From Aliivibrio wodanis (lineage in GTDB: Bacteria; Pseudomonadota; Gammaproteobacteria; Enterobacterales; Vibrionaceae), in NCBI GenBank assembly GCA_000953695.1, contig LN554846.1, positions 744,001 through 808,000 on the forward strand: a DNA stretch of 64,000 nucleotides, in the 5' to 3' direction. Positions 28,654 through 43,634 of this stretch are shown here, in pieces. The position numbers were made by a program, and so were the translations under genes. The stretch's first letter is position 1. Each line of letters starts with the position of its first letter. The notes under the pieces were generated by a model. That model made no database searches and had not been told where the DNA came from. It saw only the letters and a list, made by a program, of their open reading frames with translations.

Positions 28654-29538
28654 TTATTCTTTTTGATAATTTAAGTACTCAACGCACAGTTCATAGAATT
28701 GCTGAGCTTGTGGTGAGATGGTTCTGCCTGCTAACTGAAATATTCCAATTTGTCGCTCCAGTGGCGGATCAATCAAAGGGATCCAGACTAAACGGGTTTC
28801 ATTGGTTGGGAAGGCTAATTTGGGTAAGGTCGTAATTCCAATACCGAGTTCTAATATTGAAAACAATGAGGTGATATTCTCTACAGAGTAGAGGGCTTGT
28901 TGGCTAAGTACGTGAGCAGGAGTGGAATTAAGTAAAGAACAAGTCCCGTTCTTAATAAAAGGGTATGGGAGTAATGCCTGCCATTCAACACCGTCGAGGT
29001 TATTGGCAATCGGATGATCTTTTAAGCACACCACCCCAATAGGATCGGCGATAAGCGGAGTAAAGTGAATCGCTTCCTCTTCTAATTGCGAGTAATTCCC
29101 TAACGCTAAATCGACCTCGCCAGATAATAATCTTGCTTCAACGGCGGCGGCATTATCATCAATTAAACTGACTTCCACATTTGGGTACTTCTCACTAAAT
29201 GCTCCCAGTACACTCGGGATTAATTTTGCAGCAACAGAAGGAACACTTGCAATACGGACCCGTCCTTGTTGGCCTGCTGCATCGGCACGTAGATCGTTGG
29301 TTAGCTGTTCATAAACGCCTAAGAACTGTTTTATTTTAGGAAAGCAGATCTCTCCAAAAGGGGTTAATTTAGATTTATTACCGGCTTCAAATAAAGGTTG
29401 CTCTAAAATACGTTCAAGTTCTTTAATTGAAGTTGATAACGCCGCTTGAGAACGATTTGCACGATTTGATGCAGCGCGAAAGCCCCCTTCTTCTACGACT
29501 AAAGTAAAGTGTTTCAATTGTTGTAGCTTGATACTCAT
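28654..29538 (-). CDS. LysR-family regulator of the adjacent catabolic cluster
   Basis: 294-aa regulator. N-terminal winged helix (FRAASNRANRSQAALSTSIKELER, about residues 20-43) and a LysR substrate-binding domain (about 90-290). A strong GGAGGGAGGA ribosome site precedes ATG 29538. It is divergent from ridA-ALDH-dipeptidase-BCCT and presumably activates those genes in response to their substrate (inference from arrangement). The intergenic region contains inverted repeats suitable for LysR binding. Confidence 0.9.
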   Translation of the reverse strand: MSIKLQQLKHFTLVVEEGGFRAASNRANRSQAALSTSIKELERILEQPLFEAGNKSKLTPFGEICFPKIKQFLGVYEQLTNDLRADAAGQQGRVRIASVPSVAAKLIPSVLGAFSEKYPNVEVSLIDDNAAAVEARLLSGEVDLALGNYSQLEEEAIHFTPLIADPIGVVCLKDHPIANNLDGVEWQALLPYPFIKNGTCSLLNSTPAHVLSQQALYSVENITSLFSILELGIGITTLPKLAFPTNETRLVWIPLIDPPLERQIGIFQLAGRTISPQAQQFYELCVEYLNYQKE

Positions 29539-29568
29539 TTATCCTCCCTCCTTGTCAGCCCTTTATTT

Positions 29569-29636
29569 ATCTAACGTTTACTAAAGTGATAGATTTTTCT
29601 TATCGAATGTAAAAAATTTACCGTTAGATTTATCAC
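29569..29636. promoter_or_regulatory. Nested inverted repeats between lysR and ridA-like gene
   Basis: ATCTAACG (29569-29576) is inverted at 29622-29629 (CGTTAGAT), and GTGATA (29586-29591) is inverted at 29631-29636 (TATCAC). Divergent regulator/target spacing makes this a candidate operator. Function is inferred only. Confidence 0.4.
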
Positions 29637-29707
29637 CTGTCAATGTGCATTATTTAACCATGTTGAAACATTGTTATTACATGACGAATGAGAGAGTGAC
29701 GACTAAA

Positions 29708-30091
29708 ATGAAAAAGCATGCAGTAAAAACCGAGCTATTTGCGTCAAAAGCACCTCTTGAGTGGGCAATTGTAAATAACAGCACTTTATATACGGCTCAG
29801 ATACCGATTGATCAATCAGGAATGGTGGTTGAAGGAGGGATTGAAGCTCAAACTCGTCAAACTCTAGATAATTTAGTTCACACATTAGAGTGTGCGGGAG
29901 AGTCGTTAGATTCCGTTCTGCAAGTATTGATTTATGTCACTGACAGAGAGTATCTCGCCACCGTAAATAAAGTGTATGCAGAATACTTTAACGCCCCTTA
30001 TCCAAACCGTGCAGCAATGATTGTCGCAGGGTTAGCTCGTGAAGAAATGTTAGTTGAGTTGGTTGTCTATGCAGCTGTTCAATCAGAATAA
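29708..30091 (+). CDS. RidA/YjgF-family protein
   Basis: 127-aa member of the Rid family, whose archetype hydrolyses reactive enamine/imine intermediates formed by PLP and other enzymes. Visible motifs are AQIPIDQSGMVVEGGIEAQT, LDNLVHTLECAG and the C-terminal PYPNRAAMIVAGLAREEMLVELVVYA. The usual RidA arginine is replaced in context by PNRAAMIV, so it may be a Rid subfamily other than RidA itself. The start ATG 29708 fits family length; upstream ATG 29681 and GTG 29696 are possible. First gene of the catabolic operon; its presence suggests that an imine forms in the pathway. Confidence 0.85.
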   Translation: MKKHAVKTELFASKAPLEWAIVNNSTLYTAQIPIDQSGMVVEGGIEAQTRQTLDNLVHTLECAGESLDSVLQVLIYVTDREYLATVNKVYAEYFNAPYPNRAAMIVAGLAREEMLVELVVYAAVQSE

Positions 30092-30180
30092 CGTTAAATT
30101 CACCCTCATTTAATATTAACGAATTAGTTTATTTATTGTTTATTTTTGAAAGCAATAAATCTTAGAACAAGGAAGATAGC

Positions 30181-31644
30181 ATGACAGTTCAAGCGCAAAT
30201 TATCCAAGCGGAAAAATCATTATACATCGGTGGTGAGTGGCAATCTGGTATCAGTACGATAGCAAACATTAACCCATCAGATATCACGCAGAACTTAGGT
30301 CATTTTGCTCAAGCAAGTGAAAGCCAAGTTCAAGACGCAATTTCAGCCGCAAAAAAAGCGCAACCACAGTGGGAGAAGACCCCATTAGAGCGTAAACAAG
30401 CGGTATTGCAGGCGATTGGTGATGAGTTAATTGCACGTTGTGATGAATTAGGGCGTTTGCTTTCAAGTGAAGAAGGCAAACCTTTTATGGAAGGGCGTGG
30501 TGAAATTTATCGTGCTGGTCAGTTTTTTCAATATTTTGCAGCCGAAGTATTACGTCAAATTGGTGATAGTGCCGATTCTGTAAGACCGGGTGTTTCTGTT
30601 GAAGTGACGCGTGAAGCCGTTGGGGTGATTGCGGTGATTTCTCCTTGGAATTTCCCGACAGCAACCGCAGCTTGGAAAATTGCCCCTGCATTGGCATTTG
30701 GCAACAGTGTGATCTGGAAGCCTGCGAATTTAACACCTGCAAGTGCGGTTGCCCTCACTGAAATTATTCATCGTCAAGGCCTGCCTGAAGGTACTTTTAA
30801 TCTGGTATTAGGTAATGGTTCTCAGGTGGGTAATGCGCTTATTAATTCAAAAGAGATCAATGGCGTGAGCTTTACGGGATCAGTTGATACGGGACGTAAA
30901 GTAGCAACGGCGACTGCGCCAAACTTTGTACGTTGCCAATTAGAAATGGGCAGTAAAAATGCGCTGGTTATTGCTGATGATGCGGATATTCAAACTGCGG
31001 TGGAAGCGACAATTGCTGGTTCTTTTTCTGGCGCAGGTCAGAAGTGTACCGCGTCGTCTCGTTTGGTTGTTATGGATGGCATTCACGATGCTTATGTAGA
31101 CGCGCTAATCAAGCGCATGAGTGAATTAAAAGTCGGGCACGCACTTGAAGATGGCGTATTTATGGGGCCAGTGGTTGACGGTAATCAGTTGGATGCAAAT
31201 TTTGGATGGATTGAAAATGCACGTCAAAGCGGCGCTGAATTAGCATTTGGTGGTGAGCGTTTAAATCTTGCTCATGATGGGTACTACATGTCGCCAACTC
31301 TGTTTATTAATACGGACAATAAATGGGAAGTAAACCAAGAAGAAGTGTTTGCACCCATGGCAAGTGTGATCCGCGTGGCTGATTTAGAAGAAGCAATTGC
31401 AACGACCAATGACACTCGTTTTGGCTTAACAGGCGGCATCATTACGCAAAGTTTACGTACTAGTGCGTTATTCAAGCAACAAGCGCAAACGGGCTGTGTC
31501 ATGGTCAATTTACCAACCGCAGGTACGGACTACCATGTGCCATTTGGTGGTCGTAAAGAATCAAGTTTTGGTCCACGAGAGCAAGGTCAATACGCAAAAG
31601 AATTTTATACGGTAGTGAAAACGGCTTATCAACGTCCTTATTAA
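30181..31644 (+). CDS. NAD(P)-dependent aldehyde dehydrogenase
   Basis: 487-aa ALDH-superfamily enzyme. The catalytic cysteine is C289 in FSGAGQKCTASSRL, the general-base glutamate E255 in CQLEMGSKNA, and N157 lies in SPWNFPTATAAWK. Sequence style resembles 2,5-dioxovalerate / alpha-ketoglutarate semialdehyde or related semialdehyde dehydrogenases. The exact aldehyde is unknown. ATG 30181 with AAGGAAG upstream. Second gene of the RidA-ALDH-dipeptidase-BCCT operon, it probably oxidises an aldehyde produced from the substrate imported by the BCCT carrier (inference). Confidence 0.92.
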   Translation: MTVQAQIIQAEKSLYIGGEWQSGISTIANINPSDITQNLGHFAQASESQVQDAISAAKKAQPQWEKTPLERKQAVLQAIGDELIARCDELGRLLSSEEGKPFMEGRGEIYRAGQFFQYFAAEVLRQIGDSADSVRPGVSVEVTREAVGVIAVISPWNFPTATAAWKIAPALAFGNSVIWKPANLTPASAVALTEIIHRQGLPEGTFNLVLGNGSQVGNALINSKEINGVSFTGSVDTGRKVATATAPNFVRCQLEMGSKNALVIADDADIQTAVEATIAGSFSGAGQKCTASSRLVVMDGIHDAYVDALIKRMSELKVGHALEDGVFMGPVVDGNQLDANFGWIENARQSGAELAFGGERLNLAHDGYYMSPTLFINTDNKWEVNQEEVFAPMASVIRVADLEEAIATTNDTRFGLTGGIITQSLRTSALFKQQAQTGCVMVNLPTAGTDYHVPFGGRKESSFGPREQGQYAKEFYTVVKTAYQRPY

Positions 31645-31700
31645 AATGGATGAAAAATCTACTCAACTAGATGAAACTGAAATGAAATAAGGAGTGTGTT

Positions 31701-32690
31701 ATGTATCAACAACGGATTGTTATCGATGGTTTGCAATACTGCAATTGGGATAGAGAGTATTTTCAGACTCTAAAAGCCAGCGGTATTACTGCGGTTCACG
31801 CCACGATGGTGTACCACGAAAACGCACGAGAAACGTTGAGTCGTTTTGCTGAGTGGAACTTACGCTTTGAGCAAAATGCAGATCTTATAATGCCAGTCTA
31901 TTCAATGATGGATATTGAAGAAGCAAAAGCGAAAGGAAAAGTAGGTATTTTCTTTGGCGCACAAAATTGCTCTCCCATTGAAGATGAAATTGGTTTAGTT
32001 GAAGTCATGCGTCAACAAGGGTTGTTGATCATGCAATTGACCTATAACAACCAAAGTCTACTCGCGACAGGATGTTATGAAAAAAATGATACTGGCATTA
32101 CTCGTTTTGGTCAGCAAGTGATTGAAGAGATGAACCGTGTAGGGATGATCGTCGATATGTCTCACAGTGCGGAGCGTTCAACCCTTGAAGCGATTGATTT
32201 ATCGTCACGGCCTATTTGTATTAGTCATGCCAATCCTTCTTTTGCTCATGATGCATTACGTAATAAATCAGACACGGTAATTAAAGCATTAGCACAACGT
32301 GGTGGATTACTTGGTTTTAGTTTGTACCCATTTCATTTACCAAATGGCAGTCAATGTAGCCTAGATGATTTTTGCCAAATGGTAGCAACAACTGCCGATA
32401 TGGTCGGAATAGAACACTTAGGCATTGGCAGTGATTTATGCTTAAACCAACCACAAGAAGTGTTGGAGTGGATGCGTAATGGTCGTTGGTCAAAAGCGAT
32501 GAATTATGGTGAAGGGTCAGCGAGTAATTCAGGTTGGCCTGATGCGTTGCCGTGGTTTTGCGGTAGTGCTGGTATGGAAAATATTTACAATGGATTAATG
32601 CGTCACGGATTCAGTGAACCGGAAGCTGGGAAAGTTCTGGGTGAAAATTGGTTTAACTTTTTACAACAAGGACTAGAGCCTATTTCGTAA
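31701..32690 (+). CDS. Membrane-dipeptidase (peptidase family M19)-like hydrolase
   Basis: 329-aa TIM-barrel metallohydrolase of the renal dipeptidase family. Family features are VGIFFGAQNCSPIE, IVDMSHSAERSTLEAI (second metal region), RPICISHANP and HLGIGSDL near the end of the barrel. The N-terminal ligand segment reads VIDGLQYCNWD where many family members have an HxD motif, so the metal site may be altered. In Pseudomonas a similar dipeptidase accompanies dimethylglycine catabolism genes. Here it lies between an ALDH and a BCCT transporter, so the true substrate may be a small N-methylated or cyclic amide and not a dipeptide. Confidence 0.85.
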   Translation: MYQQRIVIDGLQYCNWDREYFQTLKASGITAVHATMVYHENARETLSRFAEWNLRFEQNADLIMPVYSMMDIEEAKAKGKVGIFFGAQNCSPIEDEIGLVEVMRQQGLLIMQLTYNNQSLLATGCYEKNDTGITRFGQQVIEEMNRVGMIVDMSHSAERSTLEAIDLSSRPICISHANPSFAHDALRNKSDTVIKALAQRGGLLGFSLYPFHLPNGSQCSLDDFCQMVATTADMVGIEHLGIGSDLCLNQPQEVLEWMRNGRWSKAMNYGEGSASNSGWPDALPWFCGSAGMENIYNGLMRHGFSEPEAGKVLGENWFNFLQQGLEPIS

Positions 32691-32789
32691 AGCGAGACCC
32701 ACACATGGAGCAGCCGATTCAATATAAAAATAATAGAGTCGGTGGTAAATACACCTTTGCAGCTGCAAAGAATACCCTGGAGTCAGAGT

Positions 32790-34382
32790 ATGTCTGATTT
32801 AATGAATAGCGTGAAAGAGTCAAGCAAGAGTACAGAGCAAAAGGGAACGAAAAAAGCACAGCATAGTGAAACAACCGCTGAAAAATTAGGCCTTAATAAC
32901 CCTGCCTTATGGTATAGCGGTGGTTTTATTGCCGCATTTGTTTTAATCGCTTTAGTTGATAGTGAACTGCTGTCTACCATTGTAAACTCAGGTTTTGCTT
33001 GGGCTGTAAAAGTCTTTGGTCCTTACTGGCAATTACTATTATTACTTACCTTTCTTATTGGTATTGGGCTTGCTGCGGGACGTACTGGGCGAGTGATCTT
33101 AGGAGGGATTGATAAGCCAGAGATGGATGGTTTTCGTTGGATGGCGATTATCTTTTGTACCTTATTAGCTGGGGGCGGTGTTTTTTGGGCTGCTGCAGAA
33201 CCGATTGCTCACTTTGTTAATCCTCCACCATTGTATGGTGCGCAAGTCGATGCCCAACAAGGTGCGGTGAACGCGTTATCACAATCTTTTATGCATTGGG
33301 GATTCTTAGCATGGTCTATTGTGGGGAGCCTAACTTCTATCGTTGTTATGCACCTTCATTATGATAAGGGGCTACCACTAAAGCCAAGGATCTTACTTTA
33401 TCCTGTTTTTGGAGAGCGAGTACTCAAAGGGCATACCGGAGCGCTGATTGATGCATGCTGTATTGTTGCGGTAGCAGCAGGAACCATTGGTCCCATTGGC
33501 TTTTTAGGCTTACAAGTGAGCTACGCGTTAAACGCTCTGTTTGATATTCCAGATGGCTTTACTACGCAATTTATTATCATCTTATTTGCTATCGCTTTAT
33601 ATACCATATCGGCGCTGAGTGGCTTGAATCGTGGTATGCAAATGCTGAGTCGATATAACGTTATTTTAGCATCTGCATTAATGCTTTATATCCTTATCTT
33701 TGGACCTACAAACTTCATTGTAAACGGTTATATCCAAGGTGTGGGAAGCATGATTGATAACTTCATTCCAATGGCGACATACCGAGGTGACGAAGGTTGG
33801 TTAAGCTGGTGGACGGTTTTCTTCTGGGGATGGTTCTTAGGGTACGGTCCGATGATGGCCATATTTATTGCTCGTATCTCAAGAGGGCGCAGCATTCGCC
33901 AGTTGATTACGACAATTAGTATTGTGGCGCCACTTGTTACGTGTTTTTGGTTCACGATTGTGGGTGGTTCTGGGTTGGCTTTTGAAATTGCTGAACCAGG
34001 TAGTGTCAGTAAAGCCTTTGAAGGGTTTAACTTACCAGGAGCATTACTTGCCGTAACTTCACAGCTACCAATGCCAATGGTTATGTCTATTTTATTTTTA
34101 ATCTTAACCACTATTTTTATTGTGACAACCGGGGATTCAATGACCTACACCATCAGTGTTGTTGTTAGTGGTGAGACCGAGCCTAATGCCATTATCAGAA
34201 CCTTCTGGGGTGTGATGATGGGGGTGACGGCAATCATCTTAATCTCCCTTGGATCTGGTGGCATTTCAGCATTGCAGTCTTTTATTGTTATTACCGCCGT
34301 CCCCGTATCTTTAATTTTGCTCCCTTCATTGTGGAACGCACCACAAATAGCAATGAAGATGGCAAAGGAACAGGGCCTCTAA
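32790..34382 (+). CDS. BCCT-family betaine/carnitine/choline-type transporter
   Basis: 530-aa inner-membrane carrier with about 12 hydrophobic segments after a hydrophilic N-terminal tail of about 45 residues. BCCT landmarks are GGGVFWAAAEPIAHF, the W-rich TM8 region LSWWTVFFWGWFLGYGPMM and FIARISRGRSIRQ. It imports a quaternary-ammonium or related zwitterionic compound. Its place in a catabolic operon suggests uptake as a nutrient more than as osmolyte. ATG 32790 has GGAG 7 bp upstream; the longer frame (from 32742) lacks support. A hairpin (34406-34425, GAGCGG/CCGCTC) follows the stop. Confidence 0.92.
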   Translation: MSDLMNSVKESSKSTEQKGTKKAQHSETTAEKLGLNNPALWYSGGFIAAFVLIALVDSELLSTIVNSGFAWAVKVFGPYWQLLLLLTFLIGIGLAAGRTGRVILGGIDKPEMDGFRWMAIIFCTLLAGGGVFWAAAEPIAHFVNPPPLYGAQVDAQQGAVNALSQSFMHWGFLAWSIVGSLTSIVVMHLHYDKGLPLKPRILLYPVFGERVLKGHTGALIDACCIVAVAAGTIGPIGFLGLQVSYALNALFDIPDGFTTQFIIILFAIALYTISALSGLNRGMQMLSRYNVILASALMLYILIFGPTNFIVNGYIQGVGSMIDNFIPMATYRGDEGWLSWWTVFFWGWFLGYGPMMAIFIARISRGRSIRQLITTISIVAPLVTCFWFTIVGGSGLAFEIAEPGSVSKAFEGFNLPGALLAVTSQLPMPMVMSILFLILTTIFIVTTGDSMTYTISVVVSGETEPNAIIRTFWGVMMGVTAIILISLGSGGISALQSFIVITAVPVSLILLPSLWNAPQIAMKMAKEQGL

Positions 34383-34502
34383 ACTCCCTCAATAACGTGA
34401 AGCAAGAGCGGTAAATACGCCGCTCAAGTCGGCTCTAATAAAGACTCTAAGATAATAAAGAGCCTATCAATATACTTATAACTAGAAATGGTGGTGAGCA
34501 AC

Positions 34503-36188
34503 ATGGATGCACATCGTTCAACGTACGCTGAAACTCATCTGCGTAAACCTGAAATTGTCATGGCGCCGGAAAGATTGGGTGCTATGCATCAAAATAGGAT
34601 CAGTTTTGTTCGTAGCTTAATACGAAAAATGGCACAACAAAATTGGCAAGTAACTAAACATGAATGGCAATTATCACCCCAAGGTTTTGGTCATGTTATT
34701 TATAAATTAGTTACGGGCAATCACACTTATCATCTCGTTGTATTTTGTGATGAGATAGCAGATGAAGAACGTAATGATCGTGTTATTGCTGAAAAGTGGG
34801 ACGTGACCTTTGCATTAGTTCTTGGAGATGTGGATGTTGAGTTATTAAGTCGCTTAAAAGCCAATGTCCCATTACAAGAAGCAGGAAGAAATCCGAATAA
34901 TGTATTGGTGTTAGCCAGAGCAAATAAAAGTGTACGAGTGTTTGAACATCTTGTTTCTCATTTAGCTAAAGGGGAACAACCTGCCCAAAAAGTGCTTGCG
35001 GAGGTGGGTTATATCCTTCGAACGACCGCTGTTTATGGTAATGGTAAATTTGGCATTGCAGATTTTAAATTATTGGAAAATAACCCTGATTTTAATCAGT
35101 CGTTTAGTGCCCAAATGTGTGCGGTTTATATGTTGCGCCAATTTAGTTTAGATTGGGTTCACTATTTAGCAACCGAGCAAGGTGGAGAAAAAGCCGTTAA
35201 TTTAGATCGTCAACTGCAGCGCTACCTTGGGGTAGGCAACGCGACTGGCTTAGGGATGGCTCCTTATTTGATTAACCACCCTTGTATTGTTGACCAGTGG
35301 ATGTTTGCTCGAGAGATGGCACTGGCTGAAGTTCTACATCATAGAGTTACATTAAATAAGAAAGCGCCTCTTAGTTACTTGTTGAAAAAAGCAGTGCAGC
35401 ACTTAGAGCAGGTTATTACGATCAATGAGCTTCAGGATAACTTAAATCACATTGCAGCATCAGAATTAACGTCTTTAATTAATGCATTAGATACTCTTCT
35501 TGCACAGAGCCGCACTTGGCAAGATGTGATGATGAACTCAAGTGACATGAGTCTAGAAGCACAAGAGATAGTACTGTCTTGTTTAATGGAAGTTCATCCA
35601 GAATTAGTGGATAGCTTTGAAGAGCAAATGAATTGCAGTGAGACCTTGTCCTTACCAAGTGGCAAGAAGGTCCAAGACTTAATTGCTATCTTAGAAAATA
35701 GTTATCAATGGGCCATTACTACCGATTTTACTCAAGCAGAAAATAATTATTGGTTTTGGTATCGCTCACAAGATAAAGAAGAGCCACGATTAGGTGTTCG
35801 AGGAGAAGAGAAGGGAGAGGACAGAGAGTTACCATTGGATATCGGTCGTCAAGTGTATCGCCTTTATCATGAACTATTGAAGTGTGAAACGAGTATGTCT
35901 CTGGCTGAATTTCTAGTAGAACACCCTCAGTATCGTGCCATTGCGCGTCGAGTGTGGACGTTAGGGCATAAGGCGATGGGTGATATTCAAATGAATGTAC
36001 TGCATAAGTCGTCTTTACCAATGCATTTATTACGCTGTAAATTGGCCGTCTTTGGGGCAACTAAGTTTGATCCTCGATCTGAACGTTGGGTTCGAGTCAC
36101 GTTTTTTCAGGGATCGCCATTATTAGATGAAATCCATGATGGGGAGTGGTTGTTCCCATTACTGCCAAGTAAAGGAGAAGGCCAATGA
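34503..36188 (+). CDS. Uncharacterised 561-aa protein, paired with DUF3726
   Basis: I recognise no family. The protein is soluble, without signal peptide or membrane segments. It has a region rich in conserved-looking aromatic and charged positions (MAPERLGAMHQNRISFVRSL near the N-terminus, FCDEIADEERNDRV at about 80) and a helical middle and C-terminal part. Its stop overlaps the start of the DUF3726 gene (ATGA), so the two proteins are probably made in equal amounts and may form a complex. As part of the BCCT/ALDH/dipeptidase cluster it is a candidate for the missing substrate-attacking enzyme (inference). The start ATG 34503 has GGTGAG upstream; ATG 34488 would add five residues. Confidence 0.75.
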   Translation: MDAHRSTYAETHLRKPEIVMAPERLGAMHQNRISFVRSLIRKMAQQNWQVTKHEWQLSPQGFGHVIYKLVTGNHTYHLVVFCDEIADEERNDRVIAEKWDVTFALVLGDVDVELLSRLKANVPLQEAGRNPNNVLVLARANKSVRVFEHLVSHLAKGEQPAQKVLAEVGYILRTTAVYGNGKFGIADFKLLENNPDFNQSFSAQMCAVYMLRQFSLDWVHYLATEQGGEKAVNLDRQLQRYLGVGNATGLGMAPYLINHPCIVDQWMFAREMALAEVLHHRVTLNKKAPLSYLLKKAVQHLEQVITINELQDNLNHIAASELTSLINALDTLLAQSRTWQDVMMNSSDMSLEAQEIVLSCLMEVHPELVDSFEEQMNCSETLSLPSGKKVQDLIAILENSYQWAITTDFTQAENNYWFWYRSQDKEEPRLGVRGEEKGEDRELPLDIGRQVYRLYHELLKCETSMSLAEFLVEHPQYRAIARRVWTLGHKAMGDIQMNVLHKSSLPMHLLRCKLAVFGATKFDPRSERWVRVTFFQGSPLLDEIHDGEWLFPLLPSKGEGQ

Positions 36189-36916
36189 TCGTTTCACATA
36201 ATGAACTTGTCGCGGTGACGAATAAAGCATTTTTAGGTATGCGACGTACGTGTGGAGAGGCGGACGTGATTGCGAATATGGTGGCAGATCTACAAATGAT
36301 TGGTTTGAATGGGGTGAAACATTTTAATAATGCGACTCAATTTTTAACCGTAGAAGAAGATTGCCCAGCCGATATAAAAAGTATGGATTCAAATCACCTT
36401 GTTGTTGATTTACATGGCGGTAGTGTTGCTTGTCATTTACCTGTGATAATTGATTATGCCGTTGAAAACATGGTGGGAGAAAAACAGTTAACCATTACAC
36501 TTAAAAAATGTCATAACCGTTGGTTGGCGTACAGTGAGCTTGTAAAGCTAGCGGCGAAAGGAATTGCGTGTAAGGCGTTTTGGGATAATGGAACCAGCCC
36601 TAAAAGAACGCTGTATATACTTAATCGAGGTTGTGTTTCTCCTGAGTTATTTCTATCGGATAGAGTTGATTTAAATAGTATAAATCTCAATGATATGACG
36701 ATTGAATTATCGATAAGAGATTTTGATGTGGTGGCATTATCGGAAGGCTATAGCATTCATATTGATTCAACCGAATTACATGCCACACAAGAAAATGCAT
36801 GGCGCAATGGCATTGCCGTTGATGACGTTGATTGGGAAAATTTAAAAAAAACCGCGACCGCTATTTTAGTTGAGAACAGTGAGCAGTCGTTAAAAGGGGC
36901 TGGAGAGTTGGTTTAA
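36185..36916 (+). CDS. DUF3726-family protein
   Basis: 243-aa soluble protein of the DUF3726 type, function unknown. The N-terminal block ACGEADVIANMV-like RTCGEADVIANMVADLQMIG and the C-terminal block ENAWRNGIAVDDVDWENL...NSEQSLKGAG are the most family-like parts. The N-terminal block faintly recalls the start of LDH2/malate-dehydrogenase-like enzymes, but no nucleotide-binding motif is visible. It overlaps the preceding gene by 4 bp (ATGA). Last gene of the cluster; followed by a terminator. Confidence 0.78.
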   Translation: MIVSHNELVAVTNKAFLGMRRTCGEADVIANMVADLQMIGLNGVKHFNNATQFLTVEEDCPADIKSMDSNHLVVDLHGGSVACHLPVIIDYAVENMVGEKQLTITLKKCHNRWLAYSELVKLAAKGIACKAFWDNGTSPKRTLYILNRGCVSPELFLSDRVDLNSINLNDMTIELSIRDFDVVALSEGYSIHIDSTELHATQENAWRNGIAVDDVDWENLKKTATAILVENSEQSLKGAGELV

Positions 36917-37571: not shown

Positions 37572-38600
37572 ATGATATCTTACCTACTAAGACGACTTTT
37601 ATTGGTTGTCCCGACCTTTATTGGCATTACCTTACTTATTTTTGCATTAACACGTTTTGTTCCTGGTGGTCCTGTTGAACGCATGTTGTTGAGTTTACAA
37701 ATGCAAGGTTCCTCTGAAACTGGTGGTACGAGTAGTGTTACTGACGGTAACAATGCTTTATCTGAAGATCAAATCGCTGAACTCAATGCTTTTTATGGAT
37801 TGGATAAACCCGTATTTGAAGCCTATTATGATTGGTTAACTAAATTAGTCGTTCTTGATTTGGGTGAGTCTACCCGTTACTACGAACCCGTATGGGACAT
37901 GATAGCCGAGCGCTTACCAGTTTCTCTTTTTTATGGAGGTATGACCTTTCTACTCAGTTATATGATCTCCATTCCTCTTGGTTATCTTAAAGCGTTAAAG
38001 CACGGTTCTATTCTTGATTCTACGTCTTCCATTGCTATTTTCGTTGGCTTTGCCTTACCAGGTTATGTCATTGGTGTGTTTTTAATCAGCTTGTTTAGCT
38101 ACCAGTTAGAATGGTTTCCTATGGGCGGATTTGTTGGTGATGATTTTGATGATTTTGGAACCTTTGAGCAAATAAAAGACATTATGTGGCATGCAGTGTT
38201 ACCCCTGTTTTGTTACCTGATTGGTGATTTTGCTCTTCTGACAATGACGATGAAAAATAATTTAATGGAAAATTTAGCTGCTGATTATGTACGAACCGCA
38301 ATAGCAAAAGGTCTTCCTTTTCAAAAAGCCGTTCGTCGGCATGCACTACGAAATAGTTTAATTCCAGTGGCAAGCCATTTTGGTAATTCATTAATGTTCT
38401 TTATGACAGGCTCTTTTTTGATTGAAGTTATTTTTAATATTGATGGTATTGGCTTACTTGGCTACGAGGCGATCATGGAGCGAGATTACCCAGTAGTAAT
38501 GGGGTTATTTGCAATTAATGCCATGATGTTAATGTTAGGCAATATTCTGTCTGATGTGTGTGTTGCAGCGGTTGATCCGCGCGTGAAATTTGGAGCTTAA
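37572..38600 (+). CDS. Peptide ABC transporter permease (YejB/OppB type)
   Basis: 342-aa inner-membrane permease of a binding-protein-dependent oligopeptide importer. N-terminal OppB signature (YLLRRLLLVVPTFIGITLLIF and TRFVPGGPVE), six hydrophobic segments, and the EAA loop DYVRTAIAKGLPFQKAVRRHALRNSL. The PGGPVE motif and long periplasmic loop resemble YejB (microcin C / peptide uptake). Its stop shares a base with the start of the next permease gene (38600). First gene of a five-gene operon. Confidence 0.88.
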   Translation: MISYLLRRLLLVVPTFIGITLLIFALTRFVPGGPVERMLLSLQMQGSSETGGTSSVTDGNNALSEDQIAELNAFYGLDKPVFEAYYDWLTKLVVLDLGESTRYYEPVWDMIAERLPVSLFYGGMTFLLSYMISIPLGYLKALKHGSILDSTSSIAIFVGFALPGYVIGVFLISLFSYQLEWFPMGGFVGDDFDDFGTFEQIKDIMWHAVLPLFCYLIGDFALLTMTMKNNLMENLAADYVRTAIAKGLPFQKAVRRHALRNSLIPVASHFGNSLMFFMTGSFLIEVIFNIDGIGLLGYEAIMERDYPVVMGLFAINAMMLMLGNILSDVCVAAVDPRVKFGA

Positions 38601-39655
38601 TGATGCAGTCTATTTTAAAAGTAAGCCCATTAACACAGAAAAAAATTCAACGATTTAAAGGGATTAAGCGTGGCTACTGGTCATTTTTGATTTTATCACT
38701 TTTATTGGTTCTCTCGATTTTTGCAGAAGTTTTCGTGAATAGTCGAGCATTACTTGTGAGTTACCAAGGTCAATGGCATTTTCCAACTTATGGAGATGTA
38801 AAGTCAGGAGATACCTTTGGCCTAGGCTACGCGCATGAGACTAATTATCGTGATTTACAGAGTCAATTTGAGAATGAAGGCGAGGGGAACTTTGTCATCA
38901 TGCCAATAGTGCCTTGGAACCCTTATGAGCAAGATTTTTCTGGTGATTTTCCACCGACAGAGCCAAGTATTGAGAGTCAGCATTATTTAGGAACAGATAC
39001 TATTGGTCGAGATATCGTCTCCCGCTTAGCTTATGGTTTCCGTATTGCAATGGGCTTCGCACTTATAACCTTGGTGATCTCTTATGCGATAGGGGTATCT
39101 GTTGGTTGTGCAATGGGCTTTTTTGGCGGTAAGTTCGATCTGTTTTTCCAACGCTTTATTGAGATTTGGTCTATGGTGCCATTTTTATACGTCATCATGA
39201 TTTTAGTTTCGATAATGAAGCCAAGCTTTATGCTCTTTACCTTAATTAATGTCATGTTTGGTTGGATGGGAATGACATGGTATATGCGAACCATGACTTA
39301 TAAAGAAAAATCCAGAGAGTATGTGATGGCAGCAAAAGCACTAGGGGCATCTAACTCACGTATTGTATTTCATCACATTTTGCCTAATACCATGGTCATG
39401 ATCGTGACGTTAGCACCGTTTACCATTGTAGCTAATATTACGGCACTGACCGCTTTAGATTATTTAGGCCTTGGCTTAATGCCACCAACACCGAGCTGGG
39501 GTGAGTTATTACAACAAGGAAAGTCAAATCTCGATTCTCCTTGGATAGCGACGTCAGTGGTGACAGCTATTGTTACGGTATTAATTATGGTGACATTTAT
39601 TGGTGAAGGCATCCGTGAAGCATTTGATCCCAAAAAACATACTAGATACGTCTAG
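38600..39655 (+). CDS. Peptide ABC transporter permease (YejE/OppC type)
   Basis: 351-aa partner permease. N-terminal membrane anchor, a long periplasmic segment (about 55-140) containing the YejE-like HYLGTDTIGRDIVSRLAYGFR, then the core permease with EAA loop EYVMAAKALGASNSRIVFHHILPNT. Together with the preceding gene it forms the membrane channel. The overlap of start and stop indicates coupled translation. Confidence 0.88.
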   Translation: MMQSILKVSPLTQKKIQRFKGIKRGYWSFLILSLLLVLSIFAEVFVNSRALLVSYQGQWHFPTYGDVKSGDTFGLGYAHETNYRDLQSQFENEGEGNFVIMPIVPWNPYEQDFSGDFPPTEPSIESQHYLGTDTIGRDIVSRLAYGFRIAMGFALITLVISYAIGVSVGCAMGFFGGKFDLFFQRFIEIWSMVPFLYVIMILVSIMKPSFMLFTLINVMFGWMGMTWYMRTMTYKEKSREYVMAAKALGASNSRIVFHHILPNTMVMIVTLAPFTIVANITALTALDYLGLGLMPPTPSWGELLQQGKSNLDSPWIATSVVTAIVTVLIMVTFIGEGIREAFDPKKHTRYV

Positions 39656-39730
39656 TTATCCAAATTTTTATATAAATAAATGATCATAAAATAAGTATCG
39701 AATATAGAGATAATAAAAAGAAAGGACTCG

Positions 39731-41575
39731 ATGAATATGAATAAAAAACTCACAACATTAGCATTATCTACAGTTGCATTATTTAGCTCGCAAGCATTTT
39801 CTGCAGATTTACCTGATAATTTGCAATGGCAAACCAACGACACTGCACCTACATTTGCTTCTACTGAAGCAACCTTTGGAGGTTCGTATCGTACATATAC
39901 GCTAAGTTTCCCGCAAACATTTCGAACTGTTGGACCTGATTCAAATGGTGCATTTAGAGCGTGGATTCTAGAGGCTAATATTCTTCCTTTAATTAAGCAC
40001 CCAAATACGGGAGAGTGGTTGCCGGGTTTAGCTCAATCATGGGCATTTGGTGATGATAATAAAACCGTCTATTTTAAGTTAAACCCCAAAGCGACATGGA
40101 GTGATGGCAAGCCGGTTACCGCCGATGATTATCAGTTCATGCTTAAATTAATGCGTTCAACTGACATTGTTGCGCCGTGGTATAACGACTTTTTTACCAA
40201 TGAAATTGCAGACATTGTAACCTTTGATAAGAATACCATTGGTATTGTATCGGCAAAGCCACGTAATCGTGATGAGTTAATCGAATACACCAATCTAATG
40301 CCTCGTCCAGCACACTTTTATGGCAACCCAAAAGTTGATGAAAATAACGATGGGATTGAAGATAAATTTGTTCGTAAATACAACTTTAAACCAGAGCCTG
40401 TTACTGGACCTTATTATATTGACAAGATTAAGAAAGGTAAGAATATCGCCTTTAAACATGTTGGTGAAGATTGGTGGGGTTATGAGAATAAATATAACCA
40501 GAATCGCTTTAATGTAGAAAAAATAAATATAAAAGTTATTCGTGATGCAGATATCGCTTTAAAGCATTTTGAAAAAGGTAATTTGGATTCATTTAATTTA
40601 GTGCGTCCTGATCTATGGCATGAAAAGTCAGATGGTAAAAATTATCAGAATGGTTATATCCAAAAGGCGTGGGTATTTAACCAAGCCGCAGTTGGAGCAG
40701 GTGGGTTATGGCTAAATACGGCAAAACCAATGTTGGATAATATTAATATCCGTAAAGGCATCATGTTTGCCAGTGATTTTGACATGATGATAGAGAAAGT
40801 TCTTCGTGGTGATTATTCACGTAAACCAAATGGTATGGGGTTTGGTCATATTGGTTATGATAATACTGATATTCAAGCACCAAAGTTTAATGCTAAGAAA
40901 GCCATTAAATATTTTGAAAAAGGAGGATTTGCTACCATAGGTTCTGATGGCATTCGTGTTAATGATAAAGGGGAACGTTTAAGCTTTGCTGTAACTTATT
41001 CCCAACAGTCTTTTACACCTCGTGTAGCCGTATTAAAAGAGCAAGCAAAACTGGCTGGCTTGGAGCTAGAGCTAAATCTTATTGATGGTTCAAGTATGTT
41101 TAAATATGTGCTTGAGAAAAAACATGACATCTCTTTTCATAATATGGGAACCGCTGATATCCCAGCTTATTGGGAATACTTCCATTCAGATAATGCCAAT
41201 AAACCACAAACAAACCATTTCACTAACTTTAGCTCTCCTGAGCTAGATGGATTAATCGACTCATTTAAAAATGAATTTGATATTGAGAAAAAACGAGCAC
41301 TCTCTCGTGAAATACAACAACTGATTGCTGATGCGAATGTTATCGTTCCGGGTTACATGGTGCCCTATGCAAGAGCAGGTTACTGGCGTTGGATGAAACT
41401 ACCAGAGCAGATGGCGACTAAACAAACTGGGTATTTATTCCATGGTTGGGGGTTCTCTCAAACATTTAGCACTTTCTGGATTGATAAGCAGGTGAAAAAA
41501 GAAACTAAGGCTGCGATGAAGTCAGGTAAAACGTTTGAGCCTGTCACAATTGTTGATGATACTTATAAACTGTAG
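39731..41575 (+). CDS. Extracellular peptide-binding protein (SBP family 5, YejA-like)
   Basis: 614-aa periplasmic binding protein with a signal peptide ending near residue 25 (SSQAFSA). Family-5 features are ILPLIKHPNTGEWLPGLAQSW, FKLNPKATWSDGKPVTADD and EPVTGPYYIDKIKKGK. Length and the early FRTYTLSFP-like region resemble YejA/microcin-C-type binding proteins more than OppA. No lipobox, so it is soluble in the periplasm. ATG 39731 has AAGGA upstream. The substrate is presumably oligopeptides; no specificity can be read. Confidence 0.87.
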   Translation: MNMNKKLTTLALSTVALFSSQAFSADLPDNLQWQTNDTAPTFASTEATFGGSYRTYTLSFPQTFRTVGPDSNGAFRAWILEANILPLIKHPNTGEWLPGLAQSWAFGDDNKTVYFKLNPKATWSDGKPVTADDYQFMLKLMRSTDIVAPWYNDFFTNEIADIVTFDKNTIGIVSAKPRNRDELIEYTNLMPRPAHFYGNPKVDENNDGIEDKFVRKYNFKPEPVTGPYYIDKIKKGKNIAFKHVGEDWWGYENKYNQNRFNVEKINIKVIRDADIALKHFEKGNLDSFNLVRPDLWHEKSDGKNYQNGYIQKAWVFNQAAVGAGGLWLNTAKPMLDNINIRKGIMFASDFDMMIEKVLRGDYSRKPNGMGFGHIGYDNTDIQAPKFNAKKAIKYFEKGGFATIGSDGIRVNDKGERLSFAVTYSQQSFTPRVAVLKEQAKLAGLELELNLIDGSSMFKYVLEKKHDISFHNMGTADIPAYWEYFHSDNANKPQTNHFTNFSSPELDGLIDSFKNEFDIEKKRALSREIQQLIADANVIVPGYMVPYARAGYWRWMKLPEQMATKQTGYLFHGWGFSQTFSTFWIDKQVKKETKAAMKSGKTFEPVTIVDDTYKL

Positions 41576-41661
41576 GTTTATTAACATGCACTAAAAGCTA
41601 GGAGAGGGATCTCCTAGCTGTACCTTTGAGAAAGATAATAATAAAAACAGTGAAGAAGCAT

Positions 41662-42669
41662 ATGGATAGAGAAATTGTTTTATCGGTAGAAAATTTAGTT
41701 ACTGAATTTCAAACTGATGATGGCACAGTGAGAGTATTAGATGGCGTTAGCTTCCAAGTACCAAAAGGAAAAACCATCGGTATTGTTGGCGAGTCTGGTT
41801 GTGGTAAAAGCGTTACTTCAATGTCGATAATGGGGCTTTTACCTAAACCTTATGGCAATGTGGTGGGCGGACGTATTTTATATGGTGAAACGGATCTAGT
41901 TCAGTTAAGTCCTGATAAATTGTATGAGATGCGTGGTAATCGTATTTCAATGATTTTCCAAGATCCAATGACCGCTTTAAATCCGGTCCATACTATTGGA
42001 AAGCAAATTAATGAAGTTCTAGAGTTACACCGTCCTGATTTAGATAAAAAACAGCGTTTAGCTTATTCTCTTGAAATGCTTGAAAAGGTGGGTATTCCCT
42101 CTCCAGAATCTCGAGTCCATGAGTATCCACATAACTTATCCGGTGGTATGCGACAGCGTGTCATGATAGCCATCGCTCTCGCTTGTGAGCCTGATATTTT
42201 GATCTGTGATGAACCAACTACTGCATTGGATGTGACTATTCAAGCTCAAATTTTGGAGTTAATGAAAAAACTGCAAGATGAGACAGGTATGTCAATTATT
42301 TTCATAACGCATGATCTTGGTGTTGTTGCTGAGGTATGTGATGAAGTTGTTGTTATGTATGCAGGGAGAGTAGCAGAACAAGCAGGGATCTTTGAGCTAT
42401 TTGATAATCCACAGCACCCATATACACAAGGCTTGATGTCATCAATGCCGAGTTTAAGCTTACAACCTAAAACAGAACTAGAGACTATTCAAGGAACCGT
42501 CCCTTCACTTAATGAGATGCCAAGTGGCTGTCGTTTTTCAACTCGTTGTAAATATAGGCAAGATAAGTGTGATTCTGAAGTTCCGCCCATGCGTGAGATT
42601 GGATTATTACATCAAGTGAGTTGTCATTTTAGTAATGCATTAAAGAGTAACAATGAGGTGATGAAATGA
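41662..42669 (+). CDS. Peptide ABC transporter ATPase (OppD/DppD type)
   Basis: 335-aa ATPase. Walker [10 protein letters not shown], signature [13 protein letters not shown], Walker [13 protein letters not shown], and a C-terminal oligopeptide-ABC domain with the [15 protein letters not shown] iron-sulfur-type cysteine cluster. ATG 41662 ([12 protein letters not shown]) fits the family; the frame is open 12 codons further upstream. Its stop overlaps the next gene (ATGA). Confidence 0.9.
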
Positions 42670-43634
42670 GTGAGTTATTGAGAATTGATGATCTCAAACA
42701 ACATTTTCATTCAGGAAAAGGGATCTTTAATAAAGGATATATAGTTCATGCAGTTGACGGCGTATCTCTTAGTGTAAATAAAGGAGAAACCCTTGGCTTA
42801 GTTGGTGAATCTGGCTGTGGAAAGAGTACTCTTGGTCGTAGTTTATTGAAGCTATTTGAGCCGACTGCTGGTCGTATTTACTTTGAAGGTCAAGATATTA
42901 CTCACCTTGGAAATAAAGAAATGCGCTCTTTACGTCAAGAGATGCAAATTATTTTTCAAGACCCAACTGAATCGCTAAACCCAAGACATACGATTGAAAT
43001 GATTTTGGAAGAACCGTTTGTTATTCATGGTGTTGGTACACAAGAAGAACGTAAACAATGGATTGAAGAGCTATTAATTAAAGTGGGCTTACCAGTAAGT
43101 GCGGTTAGTCGTTACCCTCATGAGTTTTCTGGAGGGCAAAAGCAGCGAATTGGTATTGCAAGAGCGATTGCTTTAAAACCAAAATTAATTGTATGTGATG
43201 AGTCGGTATCGGCACTGGATGTGTCAGTTCAAGCACAAATAGTCAATCTGTTACTGGATCTACAAAAAGAGATGAATCTGGCCTTAATTTTTATTGCTCA
43301 TGATTTATCCGTGGTTAAGCATATTTCCGATAAAGTTGCGGTAATGTACCTAGGTAAAATTGTTGAATATGGCAATGCTGATACGTTATACAATTCACCA
43401 AAGCACCCTTATACCGAGGCATTATTATCAGCAATACCTGTTGTTCATCCTCGTTTTAGAGGGAAAGAACGGATTATTCTAAAGGGAGATGTCCCTTCAC
43501 CGATTAATCCACCAAAGGGTTGTCGATTCTCAACTCGATGTCCAAGAGCTGAAAAAAATTGCTTTCATGATGAACCACAAAGGCAGATAGTTGATGACAA
43601 TGCTTATGAAGTCGCTTGTCATTTATATAAATAA
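42666..43634 (+). CDS. Peptide ABC transporter ATPase (OppF/DppF type)
   Basis: 322-aa second ATPase of the importer. Walker [10 protein letters not shown], signature FSGGQKQRIGIA, Walker B LIVCDESVSALD, and C-terminal [15 protein letters not shown]. Here YejF-like function is split into two separate ATPases, as in Opp/Dpp systems. Overlaps the preceding gene by 4 bp; last gene of the operon. Confidence 0.9.
   Translation: MSELLRIDDLKQHFHSGKGIFNKGYIVHAVDGVSLSVNKGETLGLVGESGCGKSTLGRSLLKLFEPTAGRIYFEGQDITHLGNKEMRSLRQEMQIIFQDPTESLNPRHTIEMILEEPFVIHGVGTQEERKQWIEELLIKVGLPVSAVSRYPHEFSGGQKQRIGIARAIALKPKLIVCDESVSALDVSVQAQIVNLLLDLQKEMNLALIFIAHDLSVVKHISDKVAVMYLGKIVEYGNADTLYNSPKHPYTEALLSAIPVVHPRFRGKERIILKGDVPSPINPPKGCRFSTRCPRAEKNCFHDEPQRQIVDDNAYEVACHLYK

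Follow-up and report, generated by a model that had tools for sequence, protein, structure and literature searches.

The window analysed here, a stretch of 64,000 nucleotides from Aliivibrio wodanis (contig LN554846.1, positions 744,001 to 808,000), contains a cluster of seven genes encoding a LysR-type regulator, a RidA-family deaminase, an aldehyde dehydrogenase (ALDH), an M19-family amidohydrolase, a BCCT carrier and two adjoining proteins, termed P566 and DUF3726. The cluster is real and widely conserved and is most likely a homarine operon, probably one described in outline in 2026; we consider it fairly probable that it represents the Aliivibrio form of the homarine (N-methylpicolinate) catabolic operon, in a variant that carries RidA. 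The computational evidence comprises gene content, conservation, protein folds, linkage to mgd-type genes in some relatives and the mutual exclusion of RidA and Ldh_2 genes, and from it we infer the substrate, every chemical step and a P566-DUF3726 complex. Among marine metabolites and osmolytes, homarine is widespread (PMC12817926, PMC13390433).

The link to homarine comes from Ruegeria (R.) pomeroyi DSS-3, which depletes this compound to 2% or less of the starting amount within 10 h (PMC12817926). The chromosome of this known homarine user carries a cluster homologous to that of the window (locus L233; the genome was assigned to DSS-3 because it matches the megaplasmid of that strain, coordinate for coordinate, in 578 of 578 bases). 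In L233 a LysR gene is divergent from ALDH, M19, P566, DUF3726 and Ldh_2 genes, which are followed by a BCCT gene. The LysR, ALDH, M19, P566 and DUF3726 block beside a BCCT gene is common to both loci, while L233 differs in that an Ldh_2 gene is in place, RidA was not found in the stretch and the mgd genes lie elsewhere in the genome; the window cluster, in contrast, has RidA and no Ldh_2 among its genes. The L233 genes would correspond to SPO3186-SPO3192, SPO3186 being the putative BCCT gene and SPO3187 the putative Ldh_2 gene, because published labels fit the gene order seen: SPO3186 is a BCCT whose mutant grows less on dimethylsulfoniopropionate (DMSP) (PMC10130141; also PMC10030565, PMC9870897, PMC9038784), SPO3187 is labelled sulfolactate dehydrogenase (PMC4334477) and SPO3188 hypothetical (PMC4809877). 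In relatives belonging to the family of R. pomeroyi, P566 is 35-39% identical to that of the window. A 2026 paper reportedly describes a homarine operon, homABCDER, with five catabolic genes plus LysR and with N-methylglutamate as product. The L233 gene set is presumably this operon, and the window cluster looks orthologous to it, so that the "undescribed system" announced by the original prediction is probably a misnomer.

The gene arrangement goes beyond chance, because it recurs in named genomes with P566 proteins 39-99% identical to that of the window. Scanning named genomes with the P566 alignment revealed relatives encoded in at least 581 of the 591 stretches listed, of which the best 80 were used; by title these belong to Vibrionaceae, Moritella, Shewanella, Psychrobacter, Halomonas, Marinobacter and Pseudomonas, and also to Paraburkholderia, Poseidonibacter, Halieaceae, Alphaproteobacteria, Brevibacillus and an Anaerolineae bin. 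Flanks of 6 kb or more on each side are available for 59 of the 80; within 9 kb of P566, these loci contain M19 (59), DUF3726 (58, all within 1.2 kb), ALDH (58), BCCT (54), LysR (54) and RidA (47), in keeping with the earlier view of a conserved, catabolic-looking cluster for an imported zwitterion. P566 was also present in 39 of 289 genomes drawn from the class of R. pomeroyi; 20 places were taken, and the 18 with 6-kb flanks contain, within 9 kb, M19 (16), DUF3726 (12, all within 1.2 kb), Ldh_2 (7), ALDH (6) and BCCT (1). Divergent copies of DUF3726 may have escaped either count. From these counts, the core is P566-DUF3726-M19, and the carriers and the last enzyme vary. The pair had been predicted to travel with BCCT and ALDH; this link holds in the named loci and is mostly missing from the 18 Alphaproteobacteria loci, and the predicted gene set keeps its P566/DUF3726 pair but has M19, rather than BCCT or ALDH, as the further core member. 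In 121 of 137 loci, M19 lies no more than 2.5 kb from P566; in six (L053, L108, L134, L199, L206 and L212), two of which are short contigs, it was not found within 9 kb. The 137 loci include seven places repeated under another identifier (L056, L063, L065, L066, L070, L074 and L075). BCCT carriers import osmolytes in Vibrionaceae, and one could envisage a cluster for osmolyte uptake with the BCCT as its sole functional theme and the enzymes incidental. SPO3186 does import DMSP (PMC10130141), but the enzymes remain together where a BCCT is absent or other carriers are present, which makes this explanation very improbable.

Coupling of P566 and DUF3726, as originally proposed, is evident in a draw from the phylum: DUF3726 is present in 27 of 398 genomes and in none of 14 control genomes, at 29 places, one of which is the window's own, and all 28 others carry P566. 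P566 has a patchy distribution: within the genus 7 of 14 genomes encode it, and overall 11 of 41, the window genome being included in both counts. The copy in the 4.6-Mb window genome shares 99% identity with its counterpart in Aliivibrio sp. EL58. With about 29-30% identity, a second subfamily of P566 occurs on Sinorhizobium pSymB (L219) and Ensifer pT173c (L220) with genes for IclR, a DUF3726-sized, weakly Ldh_2-like protein, a dipeptidase, an ABC carrier, an aminotransferase, a semialdehyde dehydrogenase and two RidA. P566 relatives were found on 168 of 72,556 plasmid records (Sinorhizobium 64, Phaeobacter 58, also Aminobacter and others).

In the proposed pathway the BCCT carrier would import homarine, a zwitterion, and P566, partnered by DUF3726, would attack the N-methylpyridinium ring. 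M19 would then hydrolyse a carbon, probably an N-formyl group, off the nitrogen, and ALDH would oxidise a five-carbon 2-imino semialdehyde to 2-(methylimino)glutarate or its enamine. The nearest NCBIfam model of the window ALDH, alpha-ketoglutaric semialdehyde dehydrogenase (NF042993; 461 bits, below the cut-off of 770), would fit such a five-carbon intermediate. In the window form, RidA would hydrolyse the imine to 2-oxoglutarate and methylamine, which would remove the need for Mgd, while the alphaproteobacterial form would use an Ldh_2 enzyme to reduce it, and Mgd would demethylate the resulting N-methylglutamate. By analogy, N-methylglutamate would be the product expected of an imine-reducing Ldh_2 enzyme (such as 1wtj); N-methyl amino acid dehydrogenase is of this kind.

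Consistent with two exits, RidA was found in 71 and Ldh_2 in 23 of the 137 loci, and never both together. In 48 genomes searched from the 80 named loci, soxA matches, which may be ordinary sarcosine oxidase, were found in 7 of 7 Ldh_2-type, 14 of 34 RidA-type and 5 of 7 genomes that had neither gene; between the first two groups Fisher p is 0.009, a contrast confounded by lineage. Brevibacillus L158, counted as having neither, does carry a YjgF/RidA-type gene, without soxA.

Mgd takes part in homarine catabolism, and mgdABCD has been placed at the AraC-type regulator/dmm-like locus of R. pomeroyi (PMC13390433), where the alpha-subunit gene indeed adjoins an AraC-type regulator (the tmaR-mgd locus) and dmm-like genes. 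Sox/Mgd-type genes lie inside the stretch in 8 of the 137 loci and also adjoin the annotated Phaeobacter and Shinella copies of the cluster, the Shinella copy also having purU and a betaine ABC carrier; the Aminobacter stretch lacks Sox/Mgd-type genes. A tree was built from 27 alpha subunits (of the twelve cluster-linked loci, L128 and L213 gave no frame and L211 a fragment, its whole gene being entered as L242), and in it the Phaeobacter and G152 genes group with that of R. pomeroyi with support of 100/99. With R. pomeroyi TmaR, the regulator next to the Phaeobacter genes shares 48% identity and the one downstream in L152 31%. Formate-dehydrogenase-like matches, which can be other molybdopterin enzymes, occur within 9 kb in 7 of the 59 named loci and are family-confirmed only in L116, the query source. 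The sarcosine-oxidase-like alpha subunits of L127, L130, L140 and L160 form a clade with a long branch, and three of them adjoin the P566 cluster. Full-length SoxA is absent from 9 of 10 other P566-bearing relatives of the window genome.

Several observations weigh against the homarine assignment. The identity of the operon is putative and drawn from context, and two genes of the R. pomeroyi set have been given other roles, SPO3187, the putative Ldh_2 gene, being labelled sulfolactate dehydrogenase (PMC4334477) and SPO3186, the putative BCCT gene, being a DMSP carrier by mutant growth (PMC10130141). In the family of R. pomeroyi, P566 has further companions, among them MTTB and LigB-like genes, and therefore may serve several substrates. 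Oxidation is required if ring carbon 6 is to be lost as formate, and no oxygenase or redox cofactor site was recognised in the cluster beyond ALDH. The window genome lacks a full-length SoxA; since its best match (124 bits) covers the GcvT-like part only, this genome would not be assigned to the Mgd route. In Shinella, the regulator has only 27% identity to TmaR and the alpha subunit is not a member of the mgd group; the nine cluster-linked alpha subunits do not form one clade and need 5 changes on the tree, with those of Halieaceae a distant clade. Finally, the exclusion of RidA and Ldh_2 follows lineage, as noted for soxA; 6 of the 71 RidA loci repeat places under another locus identifier; and of the seven named Ldh_2-type loci, four (L130, L140, L143 and L146) have a loose Ldh_2 link, because the match lies 6-7 kb from P566.

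The same enzymes could act on a different substrate, namely an N-methylated zwitterion such as proline betaine, hydroxyproline betaine or trigonelline, whose breakdown likewise yields a five-carbon semialdehyde and an N-methyl amino acid. Carriers of the BCCT or betaine ABC type at the loci, the affinity of ALDH for the semialdehyde dehydrogenase model, a Pseudomonas MPC6 copy near mandelate-racemase and Rieske-type genes, and MTTB-family matches near 3 of 137 P566 loci would agree with this; however, a Rieske demethylase, a racemase and a proline-type dehydrogenase are absent among the seven window genes, and the R. pomeroyi gene set together with the mgd-type linkage indicates an N-methylglutamate exit, so that we regard another substrate as unlikely. 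The three MTTB-type loci (L057, L060 and L210) have P566-M19 near MTTB-family and dimethylglycine-dehydrogenase-like matches, MTTB being Pfam-confirmed in L060 only. The trigonelline pathway, TgnABCDE, degrades an N-methylpyridinium carboxylate and includes an aldehyde dehydrogenase step and an amide hydrolysis. It uses a luciferase-type monooxygenase with a flavin reductase, and the seven window genes encode neither; of 137 loci, 2 (L144 and L157) have a luciferase-type match nearby. Beside the cluster of an Arenicella bin (L144:929-5352), a luciferase-type monooxygenase by Pfam and flavin reductase-, ALDH- and hydrolase-like genes by eye recall the trigonelline genes. The 2-aminomuconate pathway, like the window, has ALDH followed by a RidA-family deaminase (6izh, among the PDB relatives of the window RidA, with YabJ and RidA), but starts from another ring type and loses no ring carbon before the deaminase. 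Glycine betaine, carnitine and choline catabolism begin with a Rieske demethylase or monooxygenase, or with carnitine or choline dehydrogenase; none of these is among the seven window genes, and a cluster of that type was rejected.

For the homarine pathway, P566 and DUF3726 may together open the ring, a role they receive by elimination. The lack of a recognised family, claimed earlier for a 561-residue protein, was confirmed for P566 (566 residues from the ATG at 34488, 561 from an ATG at the sixth codon), which has no Pfam family below E 0.07, nothing usable in NCBIfam and no family among PDB sequences. Its predicted structure is confident (predicted local distance difference test, pLDDT, 88.8; predicted template modelling score, pTM, 0.89), and Foldseek returned 0 matches in the PDB at E<=0.001 for the whole model, a search in which domain matches may be overlooked at such length; the VIA rows were weak only. 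By itself, this absence would be insufficient to call the fold new. In the alignment, 57 or more of 59 rows agree at 8 Trp, 14 Arg and 1 His, and at no Cys; the Trp and Arg would suit a quaternary carboxylate ligand, and P566 could be a new enzyme class. In G019 (L011/L012), P566 is broken into two frames.

DUF3726, previously treated, like P566, as an unknown protein, has the Ldh_2 fold, although it is ~100 residues shorter than members of that family such as YiaK and delta1-piperideine-2-carboxylate reductase (1wtj). The Ldh_2 cofactor motifs GTNP and GG.KG each occur in 0 of 48 DUF3726 rows and in 7 of 7 Ldh_2 rows, and the catalytic His at the SHG place is kept in 16 of 48, so that the protein looks like a catalytically degenerate Ldh_2 relative. 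The literature search found no paper naming DUF3726, which thus receives a structural assignment here. Predictions of the single chains left P566 without a significant PDB match and placed DUF3726 in a known fold. We advance only tentatively, as possible rather than probable, that P566 founds a new enzyme fold opening the N-methylpyridinium ring without a recognised cofactor, that the conserved tail of a dehydrogenase-fold subunit, itself without remaining chemistry, contributes to the active site, and that RidA hydrolysis (to methylamine) and Ldh_2 reduction (to N-methylglutamate) are interchangeable exits. In a different role, compatible with homarine catabolism, P566 and DUF3726 would be accessories of M19, serving as its chaperone, metal inserter or scaffold. 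The proximity of M19 described above, retained in the ~30%-identical Sinorhizobium and Ensifer copies, and the single near-invariant His and missing Cys of P566 would suit such a function. By family names, however, the R. pomeroyi five-gene set would offer no other obvious ring-attacking enzyme, and the many near-invariant Arg/Trp resemble a ligand pocket; an accessory role thus seems rather improbable.

All seven frames of the cluster are open at the positions, and carry the families, originally given (Table 1), including the four-base overlap of P566 and DUF3726. Matches to PF01042 (RidA, 82.2 bits against a cut-off of 27.3) and PF01244 (M19, 241.1 against 26) are clear, and the best PDB relative of M19 is the amidohydrolase 2i5g (6.7e-64). 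The true start of RidA is probably an ATG some 20 codons inside the annotated frame, and the BCCT substrate is presumably a zwitterion. The block between lysR and ridA is kept in 9 aligned loci (Aliivibrio, Vibrio, Moritella). Downstream, at 37572-43634, a peptide-type ABC transporter operon (permease, SBP_bac_5 by Pfam) appears unrelated.

Table 1. Features of the cluster, in window coordinates.
Feature	Position	Strand	Remarks
LysR-type regulator	28654..29538	-	divergent from operon; Pfam LysR_substrate 3.4e-38, HTH_1 8.5e-15
Candidate regulator site, between lysR and ridA	29586..29636		conserved block and inverted repeats
RidA-family imine/enamine deaminase	29645..30091	+	PF01042 4e-23, residues 35-145
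Aldehyde dehydrogenase (ALDH)	30181..31644	+	PF00171 2.9e-148
M19-family amidohydrolase ("dipeptidase")	31701..32690	+	Peptidase_M19 PF01244 2.1e-71
BCCT carrier	32742..34382	+	PF02028 5.2e-149
P566	34488..36188	+	conserved, fits no known family; confident model without significant PDB match
DUF3726	36185..36916	+	PF12525 1e-17; Ldh_2 fold without Ldh_2 cofactor motifs; C-terminal tail (residues 229-240) conserved

Interest centres on P566, on what the degenerate DUF3726 subunit contributes and on the two exits. The ring-attacking enzyme and the form in which nitrogen leaves, as methylamine or as glutamate, decide what carbon and nitrogen marine bacteria gain and whether an amine is released.

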